From a bacterium (lineage in GTDB: Bacteria > Verrucomicrobiota > Verrucomicrobiae > JAJYAR01), in NCBI GenBank assembly GCA_021779435.1, contig JAJYAR010000046.1, positions 1-11,239 on the forward strand: a stretch of 11,239 nt of DNA. The letters are read 5' to 3'. Made by a program: the position numbers and the translations under genes. Below, one piece after another: positions 1-11,239 of this stretch; the stretch's first letter is position 1, and every line of letters begins with the position of its first letter. The notes under the pieces are model-generated. The model was not told where the DNA came from, made no database searches, and saw only the letters and a list, made by a program, of their open reading frames with translations.

Positions 1-3000
1 CATGTTGACGACCTCTCCGGGAACGATGCGCAGGAGTTCCTCCGCGAGCCCGGTGGGCAACGCCTCGCCGCCGACGAGAAGTTTCCGAATCGAGCGCAGC
101 GCCTCGAGCGACTCGGGATCCTGCGTGAGGACCCGGGCGTGCGAGGGCGTGCATTGCAGGTGCGTGACACCATGCGCGGCGATCTGCCCCGGCAGCGAGT
201 ACGAGGATCCCGCCGCCGCGGTCCCGCCCCGGCTCGCGCGCATCGAGCCGGATTGCGCGGTCCGCCTGCCATGCACGCTCTCCCACTCCGAGCGGATACG
301 ATCCAGGCGCTCCAGACCTGCGAGGACAGCCTGTGGTTCGACGCCGAAGTCGATGAGGCAGGCGATGTCGTCGACGCCGATGTCGGCCAGCCGCCCCAGC
401 GTGCGACGGCAGGTCTCGGCCGTGCCGAGAAGTCCGCAGGCCGCGAAGTACCGGTTGAATGAATACTCCACGACCGCCTGTGTCTCCTCCTCCGAGAGCC
501 GGGTCACCTCGGCTCCGGGATAGAGCCCCTGCGAGAGTTCGCGCAGCAGCTCGACGGACTCGCGCAGGTAACGGCAGAGCGGGTCGTGAACAAGGGCGCG
601 CACTTCGTCGAGGTTCTCGCCGACAAAGGTGTGCAGGGCCACGGACACGCATCCGTCGCCCGGATGACCCGCGGCCCGGCGCGCTTCGCGGTAGATCACG
701 ATCTTGCGCGCAAGCTCCTCCGGTTCCTGTCCGAGGAAGTGCGTGAGGACATTCGCCCCCACCTCGCCCGCCAGGCGAAATGTCTCCGGATTGCCCGCCG
801 CCGTCACCCAGATCGGAAGCTCGCGCTGAACAGGTTTCGGGAAGACGCGCACCGTGACCGGGTTTCCCCGGCCGCCGGGAAACTCCATCGCCTCGCCGGC
901 CCAGAGCCGGCGGACGGTCTCGATGTCGCGCCGCATGACCGCCTTCCGGTCGCCAAAATTCGCCGGTGCGAGCGCGAAATCGCGGTCGTGCCAGCCCGAC
1001 GCAACCGAGATTCCGACGCGGCCGTTGGAGAGATTGTCGACGACCGACCACTCCTCGGCGACGCGCAACGGGCTGTGCAGCGGCAACACGACGCTTCCGG
1101 CGCGAATCTCGACTTTCCCGGTCGTCGCGGCGATCGCCGCACCCAGGACTGCCGGATTCGGATAGAGGCCGCCAAAGCCGTGGAAGTGACGCTCGGGGGT
1201 CCAGACGGCCTTGAAGCCATGGCTGTCGGCGAACCGGGCGCCGTCGAGCGTCAGCCTGTAACGGCCGCCCTCGGCGGACTCCGTTTCATTTCCAAAATAG
1301 AACAGGCTGAAATCGAGCGGCTTTCGCGCGGGGCGGACGCCTGCCTCCGCTGAACCCGCGCCGGGCATGCGTGCGGTTTCAGATAGGATCACGACCTTGA
1401 AGCCGCGCGTGAGCGTCCAGAAGAGTTCGAGCCCCGAGATGTCGAACGAGATGCTCGTGACGGCGAGCCACACGCCCGGCTCGGTGCCGATGACGCGGTC
1501 CATGCCCGCGAAGAAACTCACCACGTTCCGGTGCGTGACCATCACGCCCTTCGGATTCCCCGTCGAACCCGAGGTGTAGAGGACGTACGCGAGCGAGGAG
1601 GCATCGGACGTCCGGGACCCGTTGGGAGCGGCCGGCCGGGCGCCCGCAGTCCCGACCCCGTTCACGGCAACGCGCTCGTCTTCGTCAATGCAGACGACCG
1701 CGGCGTCGTGCGCAGGCAGCCGGTCCAGCATGCTCCGCTGGGTGACGAGCACCGGGGCGCGCGAGTCCTTCAACATGTACGCGAGCCGCTCCTTCGGGAA
1801 CGCCGGGTCCAGCGGGACATACGCCGCGCCCGCCTTCAGGATGCCCAGGAGCCCGATCATCATCTCGAGCGAGCGTTCAACGCAGATCCCAATGAGCACG
1901 CCGGCGGCCGCGCCCTGCGCGCGCAGCGTCGCCGCGAGCCGCTCTGCGCGGGCATCGAGTTGCGCGTAGGTCAGCTCTGAGTCCTCGAACACCACCGCGA
2001 CCGCATCCGGCGTCCGGGCCGCCTGCTCGGAAAACAACGCGTGAATCGTCCGGTCTTTCGGATACGCCGCCGTGGTCGCGTTCCACTCGCCGAGGATCAA
2101 CCCCGTCTCGGCTTCGGTGAGGAGCGGCAGCCGCGAAATCCTCTGCTCCGGCTGCGCGACCATGCCCTCCAGGATCGCGACGTAGTGCCCCATCATGCGC
2201 TCGATCGTCGGGCGCTCGAAAAGATCGGTGCTGTACTCGACGGTCACGCCGAGGTGGTCCGGCTGCTCGATCGCCCAGATCGTGAGGTCCGCTTTCGAGG
2301 TCCCTGTGTACACCGGCTCGACGCTCAGCTTGATGCCGGGGAGCGTCAGCGGCGCCGTCGGCACGTTCTGCAGCATGAAGAAGATCTGGCAGATCGGATC
2401 GAAGCTCAGGTTGCGCTGCGGCTGCAGCTCCTCGACGAGCTTCTCATACGGCATGTCGCGGTGCTCGTACGCCGAGAGAGTGACGTTCCGAACCCGCTCG
2501 AGGAGTTCCGTGACCGCCGGGTCGCCGCCGAGGTCGGTCCTGAGCGCGAGCGTGTTGATGAAGAATCCGATGAGCCCCTCGGTCTCCGCGGCGTCGCGGC
2601 CCGCCAGCGGCGAGCCGAGCACGATGTCCGTCTGCCCCGTGTAGCGATGGACGAGAACCTCGAAGCCGGCGAGGAGGGCCATGAACAGCGTCACACGGTT
2701 CCGGCCCGAAAGCTGCCGGAGCTTCGCGATCAATCCGCCGGGAATGCGAACGTCGAGGCTGTCGCCGCGGTGCGATTGCACGGGGGGCCGCGGATGGTCG
2801 GCGGGCAGCTCCAGCAGCGCCGGGGCACCGTTCATCGTCTTCTTCCAGAACTCGACGAGCCGGTTCAGCGTCTCGCCCTGGAGGTATTCCTCCTGCCATT
2901 GCGCGAAGTCCCCGTATTGGACCGGCAGCGGGGCTAGTTGCGGGTGACGCCCCCCGCTGAACGCCTCGTAACAGGAGCCGAGTTCCCGATAGAGGACCGC

Positions 3001-3504
3001 CATCGACCAGCCGTCCGATGCGATGTGGTGCATCACGAGCATCAACGCGTGCTCGGTGGCGGAAAGCCGGTACAGCCTGACGCGAAGCATCAGATCGCGG
3101 GCCAGGTCGATGGGCTTGCGCGCCTCGGCGGAGGTGAGCCGGCGCAGCTCGGCCTCGCGTTCGCCTTCGGGGAGCGCCGTCAGGTCGGTGAGGGGCACGT
3201 CGATCGACGACGCAGAGCGGACCAGCTGCCTGGGTTCCGAACCGACCGCGACGAAGTTCGTGCGCAGCGTCTCGTGCCTTTCGACGAGCGCCGCGAGCGA
3301 CTTGTCGAGAGCCTCCTTGTCCAGGTGTCCGCTCAGCCGCACGAGATAGGGGATGTTGTACAGCGGAGTGCCGGGCTCCATCTGTTCGAGGAACCACAGC
3401 CGCCGCTGCCCGGAGGAAGCGGGAATGAGCTCGCCCTCGTGCCCGGCGTCCGGCGGCAGAGAAACACGGGGTATGGCAGTGTCGAAAAGGGGTGAAGTGG
3501 GCAT
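1..3504 (-). CDS. NRPS with C domain and Gly-type adenylation domain interrupted by a luciferase-like monooxygenase (partial, runs off left edge)
   Basis: The first 1168 residues are visible; the C-terminus lies beyond the left edge. An LCL-like condensation domain (about 20-450) has an RRLWFLEQ start and an intact HHIASDG motif (H159, H160, D164). The adenylation domain begins near 488, with A3 YTSGSTGNPKG at 643-653 and A4 FDISGLELFW (D688). It is then broken by a monooxygenase of the MupA/Atu3671 luciferase-like family (about 728-1080; motifs RHFHGFGG at 772 and ASGWHD around W838). Adenylation sequence resumes near 1100 (VTHLQCTPS, LLVGGEALP) and ends just before A5. Readable pocket residues are D688, I689, L692, Q1117, L1143 and G1145, matching the first six of the glycine code DILQLGLIWK as I recall it. 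The ATG is 5 nt after the stop of the upstream NRPS gene with no strong ribosome binding site, so translational coupling is likely. Expected role: condense leucyl carrier with glycine and oxidise it. The A9/A10 region, carrier and any release domain are not visible. Confidence 0.93.
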   Translation of the reverse strand, partial: MPTSPLFDTAIPRVSLPPDAGHEGELIPASSGQRRLWFLEQMEPGTPLYNIPYLVRLSGHLDKEALDKSLAALVERHETLRTNFVAVGSEPRQLVRSASSIDVPLTDLTALPEGEREAELRRLTSAEARKPIDLARDLMLRVRLYRLSATEHALMLVMHHIASDGWSMAVLYRELGSCYEAFSGGRHPQLAPLPVQYGDFAQWQEEYLQGETLNRLVEFWKKTMNGAPALLELPADHPRPPVQSHRGDSLDVRIPGGLIAKLRQLSGRNRVTLFMALLAGFEVLVHRYTGQTDIVLGSPLAGRDAAETEGLIGFFINTLALRTDLGGDPAVTELLERVRNVTLSAYEHRDMPYEKLVEELQPQRNLSFDPICQIFFMLQNVPTAPLTLPGIKLSVEPVYTGTSKADLTIWAIEQPDHLGVTVEYSTDLFERPTIERMMGHYVAILEGMVAQPEQRISRLPLLTEAETGLILGEWNATTAAYPKDRTIHALFSEQAARTPDAVAVVFEDSELTYAQLDARAERLAATLRAQGAAAGVLIGICVERSLEMMIGLLGILKAGAAYVPLDPAFPKERLAYMLKDSRAPVLVTQRSMLDRLPAHDAAVVCIDEDERVAVNGVGTAGARPAAPNGSRTSDASSLAYVLYTSGSTGNPKGVMVTHRNVVSFFAGMDRVIGTEPGVWLAVTSISFDISGLELFWTLTRGFKVVILSETARMPGAGSAEAGVRPARKPLDFSLFYFGNETESAEGGRYRLTLDGARFADSHGFKAVWTPERHFHGFGGLYPNPAVLGAAIAATTGKVEIRAGSVVLPLHSPLRVAEEWSVVDNLSNGRVGISVASGWHDRDFALAPANFGDRKAVMRRDIETVRRLWAGEAMEFPGGRGNPVTVRVFPKPVQRELPIWVTAAGNPETFRLAGEVGANVLTHFLGQEPEELARKIVIYREARRAAGHPGDGCVSVALHTFVGENLDEVRALVHDPLCRYLRESVELLRELSQGLYPGAEVTRLSEEETQAVVEYSFNRYFAACGLLGTAETCRRTLGRLADIGVDDIACLIDFGVEPQAVLAGLERLDRIRSEWESVHGRRTAQSGSMRASRGGTAAAGSSYSLPGQIAAHGVTHLQCTPSHARVLTQDPESLEALRSIRKLLVGGEALPTGLAEELLRIVPGEVVNM
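265..1323 (-). other. Embedded FMN-dependent luciferase-like monooxygenase (MOx) domain inside the adenylation domain
   Basis: Residues about 728-1080 of the downstream NRPS start at LDFSLFYFGN and end near LDRIRSEW. They carry the hallmarks of the natural-product luciferase-like monooxygenase family: TPERHFHGFGG, YPNPAVLGAA, AGSVVLPLHSP, RVAEEWSVVDNLS, GRVGISVASGWH, then ETVRRLWAGE and LPIWVTAAGNPETF. Family members are TIM-barrel flavoenzymes that use reduced FMN and O2. The length of about 350 residues fits an entire domain, and there is no stop or frameshift, so it looks functional. It is flanked by Ala/Gly/Arg-rich linkers that join it to the two halves of the adenylation domain. Hydroxylation of carrier-bound glycine is inferred from its position and the Gly-like pocket. 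Confidence 0.9.
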
Positions 3505-3509
3505 GTGGT

Positions 3510-6500
3510 TCAGCTCGGTTGGGCCAGTTCGATTTCTGGATACGCCCCGGCCGGGCGCCGTTTCGACCGGAGTGCCGGCGGCTTCGGGAGCACAATTGCA
3601 CCGGTGCTCCGGATCGCGCTGGCGAGATCGGCCATCGTGGGGTGGTCGAACAGAACGCGGACCGACACGGAGGTGCCGAGCGCGGCGTTGATTCTCGTGA
3701 TCGCCTGCGCCGCGAGGAGCGAGTGCCCTCCCAGATCGAAGAAATTGTCCTGCACGCCGACGCGCTCACGGCCGAGCACATCCGACCACGCCTTCGCGAC
3801 AGCGCGTTCGTCCTCCGAACGCGGTCCCGCGAATTCCTTCTCCACCGGCTGCTGTGCCCCGACCGCGGCCAGCGCGGCACGGTCGACCTTCCCATTCGGG
3901 GTCAGCGGCCACGCGTCGACGACGAAAATGACCGGCGGCACCATGTAGGAAGGCAGCTGCCCGCGCAGGAATTCCACGAGTTCCGGTCCGCGCGGCGCGG
4001 CGCCCGACCGGCCGACGACGTAGCCGGCGAGCTGGGTCTGTCCGCGCGAATCATGATGCGCCAGCACGACCGCCTCGCGAACGTCGGGATGCCGCTGCAG
4101 GGCGGCGTCAATCTCGCCGAGTTCAATCCTGCAGCCGCGAATCTTCACCTGGTCGTCAAGCCGACCGAGAAACTCCAGCTGGCCGTCCGCGCGCCAGCGC
4201 ACGAGGTCACCGGTCCGGTACATGACCGGGCCGCCGCTTCCCCCGACGCTCGCGCCCGCATCATCGCGCACCGCGCCTTCCGCGCCCCCCGCAGCGACCG
4301 TGTCCAGGCCGGCTCCCCGCGCGCGGAGAAATTCCGGCCGGTCCACCAGCAGAGTCTCATCCAATAGATGAGAATACCCAGGCGCAGAGGAGACGGCTGC
4401 TGCAACGTCATCTGTTGGCTGACGCCGTGCCGGGCGGGCGAACGGGTTGCGGACGAACTTTTCCGCGGTGAGGTCAGGCCGGCCAAGATAGCCACGCGCC
4501 AGGCTCTCGCCGCCGATGTACAATTCGCCGGGCACGCCCACGGGCACGGTACGGCCCGCCCGGTCGAGCACGTAGGCGGTGACGTTGTCGATCGGTCGGC
4601 CGATGGGCGGGGCCTCGCCGCTCTCGCGCGCCACGAGGCACGCCGTGGATACGACGGTGCCTTCGGTGGGGCCATAGTGGTTGAACAGTGCACACGGGAG
4701 CGTTGCCGGAGCCGGACGCCTGAGGCGGTCGCCGCCGGTGAGCAGGGCGCGGAGCGACATCGCTTCCGGCCACGGTTCCGCGAGCACCGCCTCCGCGAGC
4801 GGTGTCGGCATGAAGGAGACCGTGATCCGCTCGTGCTCGAGCCACTTCAGCAGCTGCGCCGGCGAGATGCGCGTGTCTTCGGGGGGAAGGTGAAGGCTCG
4901 CGCCGGCCGTCAGGTACGGCCACGTCTCCCACACCGACGCATCGAACGCGGGGCTCGCCAGCTGTGTCGCGCGATCCTTGGCGCCGATCCCGTAGGTGCG
5001 CTGGTGCCAGACGACCAGGTTCATGAGGGAACGATGCTCGATCTGCACGCCCTTCGGCTGGCCGGTCGAACCGGAGGTGTAGATGACGTATGCGAGATTC
5101 CGCGACGTCGCACCGGACTCCGGAGCCAGATCGGACTCCTCCTCGAAACCGACCCCGCCGGGGGCCACGTCGATCCGGCTGGCGCCCGTCGGAAGTCCGG
5201 CCACCTCCCGGACGCCGGCCTGGGCCAGCAATACGGAGGCGCCGCAGTCCGCGAGCAGGAAGGCCAGCCGGTCCGCCGGATACTCGCAATCGAGGGGGAC
5301 GTATGCGGCGCCGGCCTTCAAGACGGCCAGCCAGCCGACGATCATCTCCGTCGAGCGGGTCATGCAGACCGCGACCCGCGACTCGATTCCGACGCCGAGT
5401 TTCCGAAGCCGGGAGGCGAGCCGGCTGGCGCGGCGGTCGAGCTCACCGTACGTGAGCGTCGTACGCGCGTCGGCGACGGCGAGCGCGTCCGGCGCAGCCG
5501 CGGCCCGGGCCTCGAAGACCTTGTGCACGCAGACTTCGCGGGAAAACCCGGCGTGCGTGCGGTTGAACCCGACGAGCAGCTTCTCGCGCTGTGCCCGCGG
5601 CAGCCAGGGAACATCGCGCACCACGTCGACACGATGATCGGCGAGCGCCTCGATCACATCCCTCAGGTGCTCGAGCAACCTTGCCACCGCGTCGGGCGCG
5701 AACCTTCGCCGATCGTGAAACGCCCGGATCAGGAGCGCGTCGTCGCCGTAGATGTCGAGGGCGAGCGGATGGTTCGGCTGGCTCCGGATCTCGAAACGCC
5801 GTTGCGACCACGGACCGCCGAGCTTCGACAGGACGGCCATCCAGGACGGCTCCTGGTAGTTGAATAGGGTGTCGAAAAGCGGGCGCCCCTGCGGCAACCC
5901 GCTCCACCCCTGGACGAGGTGCAGCGGCGTGTGCTCGAAATCGCGCATGGCCATCCATTGCTCGCGCAACGCCTGCAGCCAGTGACTCACGCCCGCCGCC
6001 GGCGAAAGCCGCACTCGCAACGGAACCGTGTTGATGAGCATGCCCACCATCGACTCCGCGCCCTCGACCGGCACATGCCGGCACGCGCGCACGGCACCGA
6101 ACACGACGTCGTCCTCGCCGGTGTACCGGCTCAGCACGATCGCCCAGGCGCCCTGCAGCAACGTGTTGAGGGTGACACCATGCCGCCGAGCGGCGTCTCG
6201 CAGCTTCGCCGTCTGCGCCTCGGTGAATCGCGTGGCGACCTCCCCCGCCGCATCGCGCGCATCCGCTGGAATCTCCAGGGGCGCGGGCAGCGGGAGCTGC
6301 GTCGGCGCATGCAGGCCCTCGAAACAGCCCCGCCAGAAGGACTCCGCGCGATGCAGGTCGAGGCTTTGCAGCCAGCCGAGGTAGCCGCGATAGGGATGCA
6401 CGGGCGCCAGCTCCGGCATCCGGCCGACGGCGAGCGAGTCATGCAGATCCAGGACTTCCCTGAACAGCGCGAGCATGCCCCGGGTGTCGAGGACGAGGTG

Positions 6501-6944
6501 GTGATACGTGAACACGAACCAGGCGTGCCCGTCGTCCGCGATGAACAACGCGAACCGGATCAGCGGGGCGTTGAGTGTCGCGAAGCCGGCGCGACGGTCC
6601 GCTGCGAGGTAGTGCTCGATGAGGGCCGGCGCATCGGCTTCACGGCAGTGGAGCACGCGGATCGGCAGCTCGACCTTCTCCGGAGGCTCGACGAAACAGC
6701 CCGGCTCGTGGCCGTCCTCCCAGACAAAGGACGTGCGAAGCGGCTCGTGCCGCGCGATCGCGACCCGCCACGCATGCGCGAACTCCGGGGCGCTCACATC
6801 GTGATGCATCTCGCACACGACCTGCTCGACATCCACGCCCGGCCCCGCGTTGTCCACGCTGTTGAACAGCATGCCCAGCTGCATCGGCGAAAGCGCATGG
6901 CAGACTGCGCCACAACCGGCATCGGATGTCGTGTCTCGGACCAT
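3510..6944 (-). CDS. NRPS, single C-A-T module, predicted to activate leucine
   Basis: A complete 1144-residue protein. The condensation domain (about 14-450) starts LSPMQLGMLFN and has HHLVLD at 148-153; the usual Gly after the Asp is Thr154. The adenylation domain (about 475-1030) has A3 YTSGSTGQPKG 622-632, A5 NHYGPTEGT 755-763, A7 YRTGDLVR 909-916, A8 from 927 and the A10 lysine K1019. The carrier domain has DNFFDLGGHSLL at 1066-1077, with Ser1075 as the phosphopantetheine site. Pocket residues D668, A669, W672, F711, L735, G737, H756, V764, V765, K1019 give DAWFLGHVVK, one change from the leucine code DAWFLGNVVK. There is no epimerase or thioesterase, so L-leucine should pass to the next protein. 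A tail of about 30 residues (KPPALRSKRRPAG) follows the carrier and might dock. About 60 extra residues lie between A6 and A7. The ATG leaves 18 residues before the LSPMQ motif, a normal lead; no strong ribosome binding site is seen. Confidence 0.95.
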   Translation of the reverse strand: MVRDTTSDAGCGAVCHALSPMQLGMLFNSVDNAGPGVDVEQVVCEMHHDVSAPEFAHAWRVAIARHEPLRTSFVWEDGHEPGCFVEPPEKVELPIRVLHCREADAPALIEHYLAADRRAGFATLNAPLIRFALFIADDGHAWFVFTYHHLVLDTRGMLALFREVLDLHDSLAVGRMPELAPVHPYRGYLGWLQSLDLHRAESFWRGCFEGLHAPTQLPLPAPLEIPADARDAAGEVATRFTEAQTAKLRDAARRHGVTLNTLLQGAWAIVLSRYTGEDDVVFGAVRACRHVPVEGAESMVGMLINTVPLRVRLSPAAGVSHWLQALREQWMAMRDFEHTPLHLVQGWSGLPQGRPLFDTLFNYQEPSWMAVLSKLGGPWSQRRFEIRSQPNHPLALDIYGDDALLIRAFHDRRRFAPDAVARLLEHLRDVIEALADHRVDVVRDVPWLPRAQREKLLVGFNRTHAGFSREVCVHKVFEARAAAAPDALAVADARTTLTYGELDRRASRLASRLRKLGVGIESRVAVCMTRSTEMIVGWLAVLKAGAAYVPLDCEYPADRLAFLLADCGASVLLAQAGVREVAGLPTGASRIDVAPGGVGFEEESDLAPESGATSRNLAYVIYTSGSTGQPKGVQIEHRSLMNLVVWHQRTYGIGAKDRATQLASPAFDASVWETWPYLTAGASLHLPPEDTRISPAQLLKWLEHERITVSFMPTPLAEAVLAEPWPEAMSLRALLTGGDRLRRPAPATLPCALFNHYGPTEGTVVSTACLVARESGEAPPIGRPIDNVTAYVLDRAGRTVPVGVPGELYIGGESLARGYLGRPDLTAEKFVRNPFARPARRQPTDDVAAAVSSAPGYSHLLDETLLVDRPEFLRARGAGLDTVAAGGAEGAVRDDAGASVGGSGGPVMYRTGDLVRWRADGQLEFLGRLDDQVKIRGCRIELGEIDAALQRHPDVREAVVLAHHDSRGQTQLAGYVVGRSGAAPRGPELVEFLRGQLPSYMVPPVIFVVDAWPLTPNGKVDRAALAAVGAQQPVEKEFAGPRSEDERAVAKAWSDVLGRERVGVQDNFFDLGGHSLLAAQAITRINAALGTSVSVRVLFDHPTMADLASAIRSTGAIVLPKPPALRSKRRPAGAYPEIELAQPS
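4224..4439 (-). other. Extra segment of about 60 residues between adenylation motifs A6 and A7
   Basis: Between NPF (833-835) and MYRTGD (908 on), where A domains usually have about 10-14 residues, this one has 72. The stretch is Ala/Gly-rich and probably flexible, with one more ordered patch (GYSHLLDETLLVDRPEF). The first third uses codons rare elsewhere in the gene (CTA, TCT, TAT, ACT, ACA, GTT, CCA), unlike the G/C-ending codons around it. The reading frame is kept through it and motifs on both sides are intact. I do not recognise a domain. Confidence 0.7.
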
Positions 6945-7067
6945 CGCGCAGAGTCTAGTTTGCGGCGAATCCGCTCAGTAGTGGGTGTGGGCCCCACTGC
7001 CGATGCGGGCTGGACCGTGCCCGTGCGAACGAGAGGGGACATGCCCCATGTTGAAATGTCTCCGCAT

Positions 7068-7093
7068 GGCGTTCACTTGTGGCAATGAACGCC
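7068..7093. promoter_or_regulatory. Inverted repeat, candidate operator or hairpin in the divergent promoter region
   Basis: GGCGTTCA at 7068-7075 and TGAACGCC at 7086-7093 are perfect 8-bp arms. Inside them TTG (7077-7079) pairs with CAA (7083-7085) if C7076 is bulged, leaving a 3-nt loop. There is no T-run on either side, which argues against an intrinsic terminator. It lies about 125 bp upstream of the NRPS start and 340 bp upstream of the kinase start. A regulator site is inferred only from the symmetry and location. Confidence 0.45.
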
Positions 7094-7148
7094 GGCCCGC
7101 CTCATCCCGCCATGGACGCCAGGGGCGATGCCGCGTGCAACCGCCTCG

Positions 7149-7182
7149 CGGATACGATGCGACCCGGGCCGCACCGTATCCG
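7149..7182. repeat. 7-bp inverted repeat with 20-nt spacer
   Basis: CGGATAC (7149-7155) and GTATCCG (7176-7182) are perfect inverted arms in the divergent intergenic region. The arm-to-arm distance is about 27 bp. It could bind a dimeric regulator or form a weak stem; at this GC content chance is a real alternative. Confidence 0.3.
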
Positions 7183-7307
7183 GGCCGGACGATCTGGCAT
7201 CGATCCTTTGTCCCCAGGAGACGCGTCGCCCGGCCCGGCGGTCCGTCCCCGCGTGCCGCGCCTGCAGTCCCGGTTCCGGTTGCCGGCCTCGGGCAGCCAG
7301 CCCCCAC

Positions 7308-7348
7308 ACCCAGTGGGTACGGCGCCCGTCGCGATTCAGGTGTACACC
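7308..7348. promoter_or_regulatory. Two adjacent short palindromes upstream of the PAS kinase
   Basis: ACCCAGTGGGT (7308-7318, 5-bp arms around one base) and GGTGTACACC (7339-7348, a perfect 10-bp palindrome) have centres about 30 bp apart, close to three helical turns. A 7-bp direct repeat ACACCCA overlaps each (7306-7312 and 7344-7350). They end about 85 bp before the chosen kinase start, a plausible place for paired operator sites. No regulator is identified. Confidence 0.35.
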
Positions 7349-7434
7349 CACCGCCGGACCGCCGGGGAGTGCCCTACACTGTGCAAAAACCGCCCCCCGG
7401 GCCCCTCCGGTGGCGCGAAACGCCCCATTTTCAC

Positions 7435-10400
7435 GTGAAGAAGGAACTTCGTATTCTCGTGCTCGAAGATGTTCCGGCTGATGTCACGCTCATCGACCAT
7501 GAGCTGCGCGAGGCCGGCATCGCGTTCCAGGTGAAACGCGTCGAGACGCGGGAGGAGTTCGCACGTGAACTCGAGCAGGAGCCGCCGGATGTCATCCTTT
7601 CCGACCACGGTCTGCCCGCCTTCGATGGATTCTCCGCCCTCGCTCTCGCTCGGACGAAATGCCCGGAGATCCCCTTCATCTTCGTCACGGGCTCCATGGG
7701 CGAGGAACTCGCGATCGAGTCGCTGCGGGGCGGCGCCGCGGACTACGTGCTGAAGACGCGCATGTCGAGCCTGGTGCCCGCGATGGAGCGCGCACTGCGC
7801 CTCGCGGCGGAGCGCAGCAAGCGACGACAGGCGGAAAAGGAACTGCGGGTGAGCGAGGAGCGTTTCCGGCTGCTCGTGAGCGGTGTCAGGGATTACGCGA
7901 TCTGCATGCTCGATCCCGACGGCCGCATCTCGAGCTGGAACTCCGGCGCGGAAATGGTGCTCGGGTACAAATCCTCCGAGGTTCTGGGCGAGCACTTCCG
8001 GCGCTTCTACAGGCCTGCGGACCGCGATGCCGGCAAGCCCGAGAACGACCTCAGAATCGCCTCCGCCGAGGGAAGGTTTCAGGAGGAGCATTGGCGGCTT
8101 CGCAAGGCCGACGAGACGTTCTGGGCCCATGTCGACATACGCGCGCTGCGGGACGAGGCCGCCGCCCTGCGCGGCTTCACGCAGGTGCTGCGCGACGCGA
8201 CCGAGCGGATGCGCGCGCAGGAGGCTCTCCGCAAGAGCGAGGAGCGGTACCGCCGGCTTGTCGAGTTGTGTCCGGACGCGCTGATCGTGCTCCACGAGGA
8301 CGAGATCGCCTTCGTGAATTCCGCGGCCATGCGACTCCTCGGAGCGTCGGAGGCCGAGCAGCTGGTCGGGAAGCGTTTCATCGAGCTCATCGCGGCCGAA
8401 TCGCGGGAGGCGGTCGCCGACCGCCTTCGCCGGCTGCGTCCCGGCAAGGCCGGATCAGGCGGTGCCGACGCGGCCGGATCCGCCGCCTTCGTCGAGGAAA
8501 CGGTGGTGCGGCTCGATGGCACGGAGGTGAGCGTCGAAATGGGCGCCACGCGGATGACGTTTCAGGATGCCCCGGCCGTGCAGATCATCGTCCACGACCT
8601 GTCGGCCCCCAAGCGGGCGGCAACCGCCCTTCTCGAAAGCGAGGCGCGCAAGACGGCGATTCTCGAAACCTCGCTCGAGGCGATCGTCGGGCTGGACGCC
8701 AAGGGGATCGTCCGCGAGTGGAACGGAGCCGCCGAACGGATCTTCGGCTACCGTCGGGACCAGGCGCTCGGAACGACGCTGGAATCACTCATCGCGCCGC
8801 CGAAAAAGCCCGAGAAGCACCTGCCCGGGCTCGCGGACATCCTCGGAACCGCGCCGGCGAGCATGCTTGGCCGTCCGATCGAACTGGTGGCGCGCAGGGC
8901 GGACGGCCGGGAGTTCCCGATCGAAATCGCGATCACCGAAATCACGATCACCGATCCGCCGTTCTACACCGCGTTCATGAGGGACATCACGGATCGCAAA
9001 CAGGCGGAGGAGGCGCTGCGCCGGAGCGAGGCGCGCAAATCGGCCATCCTGGAGTCCGCTCTCGACGCGGTCGTCACGATCGATTCCGGCGGCAAGATCA
9101 TCGAGTGGAACCCTGCGGCCGGCCAGACGTTCGGCTACAGCCGGGAGCTTGCGCTTGGCCGGGCGTTCGCCGACCTGATCTCGCCGCAATCAAACGAGGA
9201 ACTCACCCGCAAGGGACTGCCGCGCTACCTTCAGACGGGGCGCGGGAGGCTTCTGGGACAACGCATGGAGCTGATGGCGCTGCGGGCGAACGGCGCCGAG
9301 TTTCCCGTCGAACTCACGATCACCCACATCGTCGCCGGCGACGAGATGGTGTTCACCAGTTTCATACGGGACATCACCGAGCGGCGGCGCACGGAGGAGG
9401 CGCTGCGAAAGAGCGAGGAACGCTTCCGGCTGCTCGTCGAGGGCGTCGAGGACTACGCGATCTACATGCTCGACACCCACGGCCGCGTGACGACGTGGAA
9501 TGCCGGTGCCGAGCGGCTGCACGGCTACCGCGCGCAGGAGATCATCGGCCGGCGCTTTCATCGTTTCTACAGCGCCGAGGACGCCGAGCGCAGGAAGCCC
9601 GACCAGGCGCTCGCGGTTGCGACGACGGAGGGACGCTACCAGGACGAGCACGGGCTCGTCCGGAAGAACAGTTCGCAGTTCTGGGCGAGCCTGCTGATCA
9701 CCGCGTTGCGAGACGAGGCCGGGAAGCTGACCGGCTTCTCGACCATCGCGCGGGATGTGACCAAGCGGAAGAACGCCGAGGACGAGATCCGGCGCCTGAA
9801 CAGCGCGCTCGAGCAACAGGTCCAGGAACGCACCGCCGAGTTGCAGGCCGCGTACAACGAGATCGAGGCCTTCTCGTATTCGATCTCCCACGACTTGCGC
9901 GCGCCGCTCATCCATATCGCGGGGTTCGTCGACATGCTGAAATCCGACCTCGGAACACACCTCGACGACCGCAGCCGCCGTCACCTGGACACGATTTCGA
10001 ACTCGACGGAGCACATGGGCCGGATGATCGCCGACCTGCTCACGCTCTCGCGGATCGGTCGCGCGGAGATGCACAAGGTGCGCGTCAACCTCGGCGACAT
10101 CGCCAGGGAGGTTCAGAACGAGCTCATGGCTCAGTGGCAGGGACGTCCGGTGAATTGGGTCGTGGGGCAGCTTCCGGACGCGAGCGCCGACCCGATCCTC
10201 ATGCGGCAGGTCTTCGTCAATCTGCTCTCGAACGCGCTGAAGTTCACCTCAAAGCGTCCGGACGCGCGGATCGAGATCGGAGCGATCCGCGGCGACAACG
10301 AGGACGTCGTCTTCATCCGGGACAATGGAGCCGGCTTCGACATGAAGTACGCCTCGAGGTTGTTCGGTGTGTTTCAGCGGCTCCATGCGCCGACCGACTT

Positions 10401-10533
10401 TCCGGGCACCGGGGTGGGCCTGGCGAAGACGCGCCGGATCCTCCAGCGACACGGAGGGCGCATCTGGGCCGAGAGCTCACCCGGCCAGGGTGCGCTGTTC
10501 TCGTTCTCGCTCCCGCGCACCGGGCCGCCATGA
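7435..10533 (+). CDS. Soluble hybrid sensor histidine kinase, REC-PAS(x5)-HisKA-HATPase
   Basis: From the GTG at 7435 this is 1032 residues. An N-terminal receiver domain (about 4-122) has the acidic pair E11/D12, phospho-acceptor D57, T85 and K107. Five PAS domains follow (about 141-262, 268-395, 404-525, 533-655, 660-780), several with the IxxWNxxAxxxxGY signature. A short coiled coil leads to the HisKA domain with FSYSISHDLRAPL (H819). The ATPase domain has an N box (MRQVFVNLLSNALKF), G1 box DNGAGFD, F box LFGVFQRLH and G2 box GTGVGLA at 991. No membrane segment or signal peptide is seen, so sensing is cytoplasmic; the receiver should let it take part in a phosphorelay. The start is uncertain. 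GTG 7435 directly precedes receiver homology but lacks a ribosome binding site; GTG 7381 (18 residues more) has GGGGAG 11 nt upstream; in-frame ATGs at 7048 and 6985 would add non-coding-looking sequence. The ligand is unknown. Confidence 0.9.
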   Translation: MKKELRILVLEDVPADVTLIDHELREAGIAFQVKRVETREEFARELEQEPPDVILSDHGLPAFDGFSALALARTKCPEIPFIFVTGSMGEELAIESLRGGAADYVLKTRMSSLVPAMERALRLAAERSKRRQAEKELRVSEERFRLLVSGVRDYAICMLDPDGRISSWNSGAEMVLGYKSSEVLGEHFRRFYRPADRDAGKPENDLRIASAEGRFQEEHWRLRKADETFWAHVDIRALRDEAAALRGFTQVLRDATERMRAQEALRKSEERYRRLVELCPDALIVLHEDEIAFVNSAAMRLLGASEAEQLVGKRFIELIAAESREAVADRLRRLRPGKAGSGGADAAGSAAFVEETVVRLDGTEVSVEMGATRMTFQDAPAVQIIVHDLSAPKRAATALLESEARKTAILETSLEAIVGLDAKGIVREWNGAAERIFGYRRDQALGTTLESLIAPPKKPEKHLPGLADILGTAPASMLGRPIELVARRADGREFPIEIAITEITITDPPFYTAFMRDITDRKQAEEALRRSEARKSAILESALDAVVTIDSGGKIIEWNPAAGQTFGYSRELALGRAFADLISPQSNEELTRKGLPRYLQTGRGRLLGQRMELMALRANGAEFPVELTITHIVAGDEMVFTSFIRDITERRRTEEALRKSEERFRLLVEGVEDYAIYMLDTHGRVTTWNAGAERLHGYRAQEIIGRRFHRFYSAEDAERRKPDQALAVATTEGRYQDEHGLVRKNSSQFWASLLITALRDEAGKLTGFSTIARDVTKRKNAEDEIRRLNSALEQQVQERTAELQAAYNEIEAFSYSISHDLRAPLIHIAGFVDMLKSDLGTHLDDRSRRHLDTISNSTEHMGRMIADLLTLSRIGRAEMHKVRVNLGDIAREVQNELMAQWQGRPVNWVVGQLPDASADPILMRQVFVNLLSNALKFTSKRPDARIEIGAIRGDNEDVVFIRDNGAGFDMKYASRLFGVFQRLHAPTDFPGTGVGLAKTRRILQRHGGRIWAESSPGQGALFSFSLPRTGPP

Positions 10534-10712: not shown

Positions 10713-11239
10713 ATGAACCCTTTCCCCTCGCCGCCAACTTCCGCGCCGCCTCCCGAAGCACCGGCACCGGGCCGCGAGCTCGAGATCCTGCTGCTCGAAG
10801 ACAACGAGCCTCACGCCGAACTGGTTGAACACTTTCTGAGGGAAAGCGGCCTGCGGTTCACGATCACCCGGGTGGAGACCCGCGAGGCTTTCGAGGAACG
10901 TCTCGATGCGGGCGTCCCCGACATGATCCTGTCCGATTACGCCCTGCCCTCGTTCGACGGCTACGCGGCGCTCGAGATCGCCAAGCGGAGGGCGCCCAAC
11001 ACGCCGTTCATCTTCGTCACCGGCACGATGGGCGAGGAAGTCGCCATCGAAACGCTCAAGAACGGCGCGACCGATTACGTTCTCAAGACCCGGCTCGGGC
11101 GGCTCGGCCCGGCGGTGCAGCGTGCCTTGCGCGAGTTCGCCGACCGGCGCGAGCGGCAGCGCGCGGAGGACAAGCTCCGCCGCTCGCTCGACCAGATGCG
11201 CGCACTGACCACCTATCTCCAGTATGTCCGCGAGGAGGA
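10713..11239 (+). CDS. Receiver-domain protein, probably a hybrid kinase (partial, runs off right edge)
   Basis: The first 175 residues are visible. A Pro-rich leader (residues 1-20) precedes a receiver domain (about 23-142) with the acidic pair in LLLEDNE, phospho-acceptor D75, T103 and K125. It closely matches the receiver of the upstream kinase (shared RVETRE, ILSD, FIFVTG, MGEE, DYVLKTR), so the two are paralogues. After the receiver comes a charged helix (RRERQRAEDKLRRSL) and then MRALTTYLQYVREEE. From memory this last motif commonly leads into the IAREIHDELGQ box of HisKA_3 (NarX/DesK-like) kinases, so I infer a receiver-first kinase of that class, cut off before its catalytic His. No ribosome binding site is evident before the ATG; the leader makes the exact start uncertain. 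Confidence 0.85.
   Translation, partial: MNPFPSPPTSAPPPEAPAPGRELEILLLEDNEPHAELVEHFLRESGLRFTITRVETREAFEERLDAGVPDMILSDYALPSFDGYAALEIAKRRAPNTPFIFVTGTMGEEVAIETLKNGATDYVLKTRLGRLGPAVQRALREFADRRERQRAEDKLRRSLDQMRALTTYLQYVREE

Follow-up and report, generated by a model that had tools for sequence, protein, structure and literature searches.

A putative glycine module with a luciferase-like monooxygenase inside its adenylation domain, predicted to lie within a hybrid NRPS/PKS line of a Verrucomicrobiota bacterium

The window considered here, a stretch of 11,239 nucleotides from a member of the Verrucomicrobiota related to Opitutus, opens inside gene B, which encodes a condensation domain followed by an adenylation (A) domain interrupted by a luciferase-like monooxygenase (LLM). 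The best explanation, to which a probability of about 0.6 is given, is that gene B is an internal glycine module that would hydroxylate the alpha carbon of its glycine and hand the chain over to a ketosynthase in a hybrid NRPS/PKS line. Domain order, pocket code, a full-length monooxygenase and gene order in relatives, all legible in the sequence, point to this reading. The design of an interrupted A domain is already known, and its placement here seems to be mid-line, not at the end of the line. The features of the window are as follows.

1..3504, minus strand: gene B, C-A(LLM)A-[T] module with a glycine-type code; the left edge cuts it off after 1168 readable aa, and P0003 is a complete homologue
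2098..3426, minus strand: gene B Condensation domain (Pfam, residues 27-469)
1369..2034, minus strand: first part of the gene B A domain (Pfam AMP-binding, residues 491-712)
292..1311, minus strand: inserted luciferase-like monooxygenase (TIGR04020, residues 732-1071)
1..201, minus strand: gene B A domain again, resumed by residue 1102 and read as far as the start of A5, with pocket residues Q, L, G and M
3510..6944, minus strand: gene A, a C-A-T module of 1144 aa (Pfam), immediately upstream of gene B
6985..10533, plus strand: response regulator-PAS-histidine kinase (Pfam), divergent from genes A and B
10782-11237, plus strand: start of a second response regulator gene, downstream of the response regulator-PAS-histidine kinase

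The frame of gene B (3504-1) stays open for all of its 1168 codons and continues beyond the left edge of the window. Its condensation domain carries the canonical HHIASDG motif (window 3010-3030). The A3 (YTSGSTGNPKG, 1546-1578) and A4 (SFDISGLELFW, 1417-1449) motifs are both intact, as an earlier note made from the letters alone had held, although the end that it gave to the feature, position 1560, cuts A3. It was also right that A-domain sequence resumes before A5, which it does by residue 1102 (window 201). Since the window stops at the seventh pocket residue, seven such residues can be read (D, I, L, Q, L, G, M) rather than the six reported. Gene A lies 5 bases away, with the pocket code DAWFLGHVVK, which we take to be Leu-like. 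The divergent response regulator-PAS-histidine kinase is a possible regulator of the cluster, by association only.

The gene B insert is, on profile evidence, a member of the MupA/Atu3671 FMN family and a predicted FMN-dependent oxygenase. TIGR04020 (the NCBIfam model for the MupA/Atu3671 FMN-dependent luciferase-like monooxygenase) matches it at 489 bits (E 7e-147, cut-off 244.45), a score that excludes a chance match, and the match spans the whole model, positions 1-341 of 341; Pfam Bac_luciferase covers residues 739-1045. Both Pfam and TIGR04020 thus bear out the interruption between A4 and A5, and the profile check of the MupA/Atu3671 family that had been proposed puts the insert inside it at full length. 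The estimate of about 350 residues fits the domain alone (about 340-350), and the insert with its linkers extends to about 390 residues (713-1101).

The remainder of the module is supplied by P0003, a protein of 1547 aa on a 14,784-base contig that differs from the window protein at 2 positions in 1168 residues. It was found by a search with gene B residues 640-1168 in which only the 8000 candidates with the most words in common were scored; 7744 of these passed E<=1e-30, NRPS relatives in general included, and all 120 matches listed have PF00296 in the precomputed Pfam column. P0003 contains A5-A10, the A10 lysine, AMP-binding_C and a carrier domain. Its listed domains are Condensation, Bac_luciferase, PP-binding, AMP-binding and AMP-binding_C, and there is no thioesterase among them. 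The ten pocket residues, located by motif, read DILQLGMIWK, presumably a glycine-type code, which fits the glycine assignment first drawn from D, I, L, Q, L and G. Among the 120 matches listed, P0003 included, the first four residues are DILQ in 118 and DIQQ in one, with one incomplete. The A10 lysine and carrier domain expected downstream are both present in P0003, and none of the contrary results named in the earlier note (a non-Gly code, a missing A10 lysine or carrier domain, an insert outside the FMN family) was encountered.

The best solved relative of the insert is the PuwE monooxygenase (PDB 6ket, 382.6 bits). Foldseek superposes the P0003 insert on 6ket with a TM-score of 0.91 by target length, at 2.5 A and with 48% identity over 344 columns, and NRPS A domains were matched across the modelled interrupted A domain. 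That model, an AlphaFold prediction from 31 rows for the interrupted P0003 A domain, reaches a mean pLDDT of 82.8 and a pTM of 0.62, with A domain and barrel both confident and flexible junctions between them; given this pTM, their relative placement is not to be trusted. In the model the insert is predicted to leave the A domain from a loop between strand 226-229 and helix 627-634 (numbering of the modelled piece).

The surroundings of such modules were inspected around TIGR04020 matches in G001 (two loci), G002, G003, G011, G028 (one of three loci), G032, G060, G064 and G076. The gene order A (C-A-T), B (C-A-LLM-A-T), C (KS-AT-ACP-C-A-T) and D (starting C-A) recurs in seven genomes, and in six (G001, G002, G011, G028, G032 and G076) A-D is complete, with D reading C-A-T-TE. 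In G003, the contig begins within gene A, whose frame ends before the carrier domain, and the stretch examined stops within gene D. Five of the seven genomes with gene C have a gene B with 52-72% identity to that of the window over the matched part; for G002 and G003 the figures are 69 and 66% over the insert. An ABC exporter follows gene D in G001, G002, G076 and G032 and begins in G028, and the G011 stretch ends earlier. The order differs in G060 and G064, where KS-AT-LLM precedes C-A-LLM-A-T-C-A-T. A KS-AT-LLM PKS module also stands directly before C-A-LLM-A-T in L126:127-13391 and L127:3-13210, giving two LLMs in consecutive proteins. Sensor kinases similar to that of the window adjoin the cluster in G002 and, as read by eye, in G102.

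The gene A code is DAWFLG[HN]VVK in seven of eight cases, the window included, and is unreadable in G003. For gene C it is D[VIL]F[SN]xALxYK in five of seven (DVFSNAVVYK in G002, DLFNFAGTFK in G003), and for gene D DALWLGGTFK in five of seven (DAFFLGATFK in G001, partial in G003). All seven gene C proteins show the AT motifs GHSLG and HAFH, which we take to be malonyl-type, and AT and ACP lie 47-86 residues apart in the seven genomes, which leaves no room for a reductive domain. Together, codes and AT motifs presumably indicate the units Leu, Gly, malonate, Ala-like and Val-like. Given the gene A code, presumably Leu-like, and the PKS module that comes next in relatives, a corallorazine-type bimodular reading of the window genes (Ser, Gly, reductive release) was rejected. 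No description of the cluster was found among the literature matches listed, which are mostly open-access, so that one may be in print.

The interrupted glycine A domain is not uncommon overall, contrary to the earlier note, and most genomes of the family of G001 are without it: a TIGR04020 match above cut-off occurs in 20 of 252. Two peptide patterns run against genome contigs matched 570 stretches, and 335 of these encode a relative. The best 80 of these 335, representing 79 loci, were retained, and their record titles name Verrucomicrobiota, Cyanobacteria, Acidobacteriota, Proteobacteria, Bacillota, Myxococcota, Gemmatimonadota, Actinomycetota, Chloroflexota, Bacteroidota, Planctomycetota and others. 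The 79 loci contain 72 A-LLM-A domains. In 36 of them the carrier is followed by a ketosynthase encoded in the next gene, in seven by a condensation domain (five in the next gene, two in the same protein) and in two, L004 and L009, by a thioesterase of the same protein; for 24, no such gene was found within the 1.5 kb that follow on the plus strand, and in three the locus ends first. These shares do not estimate population frequencies, since the query came from Opitutaceae-type proteins and its best matches were retained as loci, and the simple ORF rules used miss some following genes. Thus, four of the 24 (L015, L024, L032, L055) do have a ketosynthase gene after the LLM protein, and four others (L053, L060, L066, L069) have a KS-AT-T-TE gene before it. 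Nine further LLM domains are not of the A-LLM-A type, one of which, L036, is merely cut by the contig end.

Several arrangements were noted beside these counts. A two-gene arrangement recurs, in which a glycine A domain with insert (about 1,550-1,800 aa) is followed by a PKS with thioesterase (for example L006, L010, L015, L022, L027 and L039). In L062, L070 and L072 from Corallococcus, the LLM follows an A-like stretch and is followed by a C domain, with no second A half, perhaps, on our assumption, the myxoprincomide type. L009 was considered as a myxothiazol/melithiazol locus and set aside, the contig start being too near to tell. Four TIGR04020 matches of equal score lie in 7320-aa open frames on G125 contigs C2, C7, C9 and C10, which, set beside the account in PMC8739492, suggests the multi-copy palmerolide cluster.

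As the module is internal in relatives, hydroxylation with hand-over to a ketosynthase is the preferred reading of gene B. In such a line, the A domain would load glycine onto the carrier domain, and the condensation domain would join it to the acyl or aminoacyl chain delivered by the C-A-T module of gene A. The flavin-dependent monooxygenase between A4 and A5 would hydroxylate the alpha carbon of glycine while it is bound as a thioester. The KS-AT-ACP of gene C, which in relatives is without a ketoreductase, would then extend the alpha-hydroxyglycyl chain, probably with malonate, before two more amino acids are added and a thioesterase releases the product. Oxidation of tethered glycine is an expectation from family members described in the corallorazine (PMC11342130) and solanimycin (PMC10204066) papers, passages of which place monooxygenases in glycine-recruiting A domains. 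That an oxidised glycine passes to a ketosynthase is most likely; from the above we infer the reaction itself, its timing, the survival of the hydroxyl through transfer to the ketosynthase and the presence of the same downstream genes in the organism of the window. The window itself ends at the start of A5, before gene C, and the remainder is taken from P0003 and relatives, which counts against this explanation. So do the report that solanimycin A arises with hydroxylation skipped (PMC10204066) and the instability of an alpha-hydroxy-N-acylglycine, which tends to shed the nitrogen, as happens with myxothiazol and melithiazol (PMC11342130).

The main rival, considerably less probable than the preferred reading, is cleavage in mid-line as after MtaG: the bond between N and the alpha carbon would break, freeing the upstream chain as an amide, and the glyoxylyl group left on the carrier would prime the ketosynthase, so that one line would make two products. 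Such an outcome is described in the pathways to myxothiazol and melithiazol: the glycine breaks up once hydroxylated, and a thioesterase removes the glyoxylate (PMC11342130, PMC10204066). It would also suit L010, the only locus of the two-gene arrangement found with formyltransferase domains (7595-12301, then the KS-AT-T-TE gene), whose glycine-LLM module lacks a condensation domain and is followed by a ketosynthase gene. However, mid-line cleavage would break the colinear order of the line, and solanimycin B, in which alpha-hydroxyglycine was deduced by mass spectrometry, shows according to its paper that the hydroxyl can be retained (PMC10204066).

Somewhat less probable again is that the monooxygenase acts elsewhere than on the alpha carbon of glycine, for instance on the polyketide extension on the next carrier, or that the insert is non-catalytic. 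Polyketide chains are the established or proposed substrates of other LLM domains, such as that of palmerolide module 9 and others cited in PMC8739492. Moreover, the A-domain inserts are not cleanly separated from the remaining LLMs: on the insert's own tree (91 rows, one of which, L036, is mislabelled since it was cut), the state "inside an A domain" needs 5 changes, of which starred branches force 2, with a shuffled mean of 10.5. Against another target stands the code, which among A domains with the insert is DILQ in 80 of 84 rows and DIQQ in one, the second A half being missing in three (one genome counted twice), and is hence glycine-type almost without exception. Insert and host A domain also vary together: path distances on their two trees correlate (80 rows, r 0.68; the highest of 999 permutations reached 0.20), which would be expected of an insert that serves the amino acid of its host domain. 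A non-catalytic insert is further disfavoured by the full-length barrel.

The A domains themselves were compared on a quick tree of 136 of 157 domains with the insert left out, omitting the duplicates L089/L090, three A-LLM proteins without a second A half, partial window rows and rows of <380 residues; the tree tool marked 28 rows as unusual in composition and three branches of this tree as long. The 80 insert-bearing rows need 3 state changes (shuffled mean 43.3, 0 of 500 as low), and the best single branch (SH-aLRT 99) unites all 80 with four domains that lack the insert, L128 and three from Bacteroidota. Three uninterrupted domains with a DILQ code (L057, L068, L129), a small control, fall outside it. 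The simplest reading, though not proven, is that the insert entered a glycine A domain once and that the two were afterwards inherited and transferred together, with some exchange. L128:7742-10983 (G102) is a syntenic gene B without the monooxygenase, nested in the insert-bearing Opitutaceae-type group, so that the insert was probably lost there. It was discarded as a natural uninterrupted control and, looking decayed, carries no information on function: its condensation motif is damaged (HEIAADR), its frame breaks after A5, A6-A8 sequence is apparently missing and no gene A adjoins. A search for gene A in G102 found none at E<=1e-200, a weak test in which G003, with its cut gene A, also scored none.

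A terminal module of MtaG/MelG type making a C-terminal amide, as the parallel drawn in the earlier note would suggest, is very improbable. It shares pocket type and insert family with gene B, and two of the 72 sampled domains (L004, L009) are followed by a thioesterase in their own protein, but P0003 is without a thioesterase domain and a PKS-NRPS protein comes next in the seven related genomes, so that an amide-releasing ending is not the default expectation.

A bolder proposal, more doubtful than the preferred reading, is that the cassette of glycine A domain and monooxygenase is one old mobile unit fixed on glycine. Its commonest use might be to furnish an oxidised two-carbon unit (alpha-hydroxyglycyl or glyoxylyl) for a ketosynthase, not to release an amide. 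In the present line, an N-acyl hemiaminal beside an unreduced ketone could perhaps be trapped by a downstream amide nitrogen to give a 5-acylamino-tetramic acid, or the line could split into two products.

Among known systems, the MtaG insert, too, is presumably placed between A4 and A5. This position differs from the usual sites of A-domain interruption, A8-A9 and sometimes A2-A3, given in a 2024 review (PMC11355689, in the portion available). MtaG and MelG resemble gene B in having the monooxygenase domain within a glycine-recruiting A domain (PMC11342130), the part of the earlier parallel that holds, whereas their terminal architecture is not expected to carry over: they end the line with a thioesterase and an amide is released, and the relatives of gene B continue mid-line with a PKS-NRPS protein. 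Module 4 of SolF in solanimycin biosynthesis, compared here by its description, is a glycine module within its line that also carries a flavin monooxygenase (PMC10204066); it is followed by an NRPS serine module, whereas gene B relatives are followed by a ketosynthase. The crz-like clusters of Serratia and Pseudomonas, 38 pathways as described in PMC11342130, likewise hold a MOx domain in a glycine A2 domain. The corallorazine line has two modules (Ser, Gly), an N-methyltransferase carried by A2 and reductive release (PMC11342130).

More distant comparisons concern the oxygenase itself. The PuwE oxygenase domain has family and fold in common with the gene B insert, but it sits between PKS and NRPS modules, where it is proposed to hydroxylate a fatty acyl chain and so to make a 2-hydroxy acyl chain (PMC4219810), whereas the gene B insert lies inside an A domain. 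The LLM of palmerolide module 9, from a Verrucomicrobia symbiont and thus the same phylum, is also of the TIGR04020 type and is proposed to hydroxylate next to the thioester (PMC8739492). It belongs to a trans-AT PKS module, and the glycine module of that line is described, in the text available, with C, A and carrier domains only. Chalkophomycin was considered as a parallel and set aside, the accessible text of PMC11085572 holding nothing relevant. The arrangement of MtaG/MelG, solanimycin and the crz-like clusters thus extends to a broad class with the same insert in glycine-type A domains across many phyla, which in this sample, where the next gene is readable, most often precedes a ketosynthase gene, so that oxidised glycine is predicted to serve as a building block in polyketide extension.
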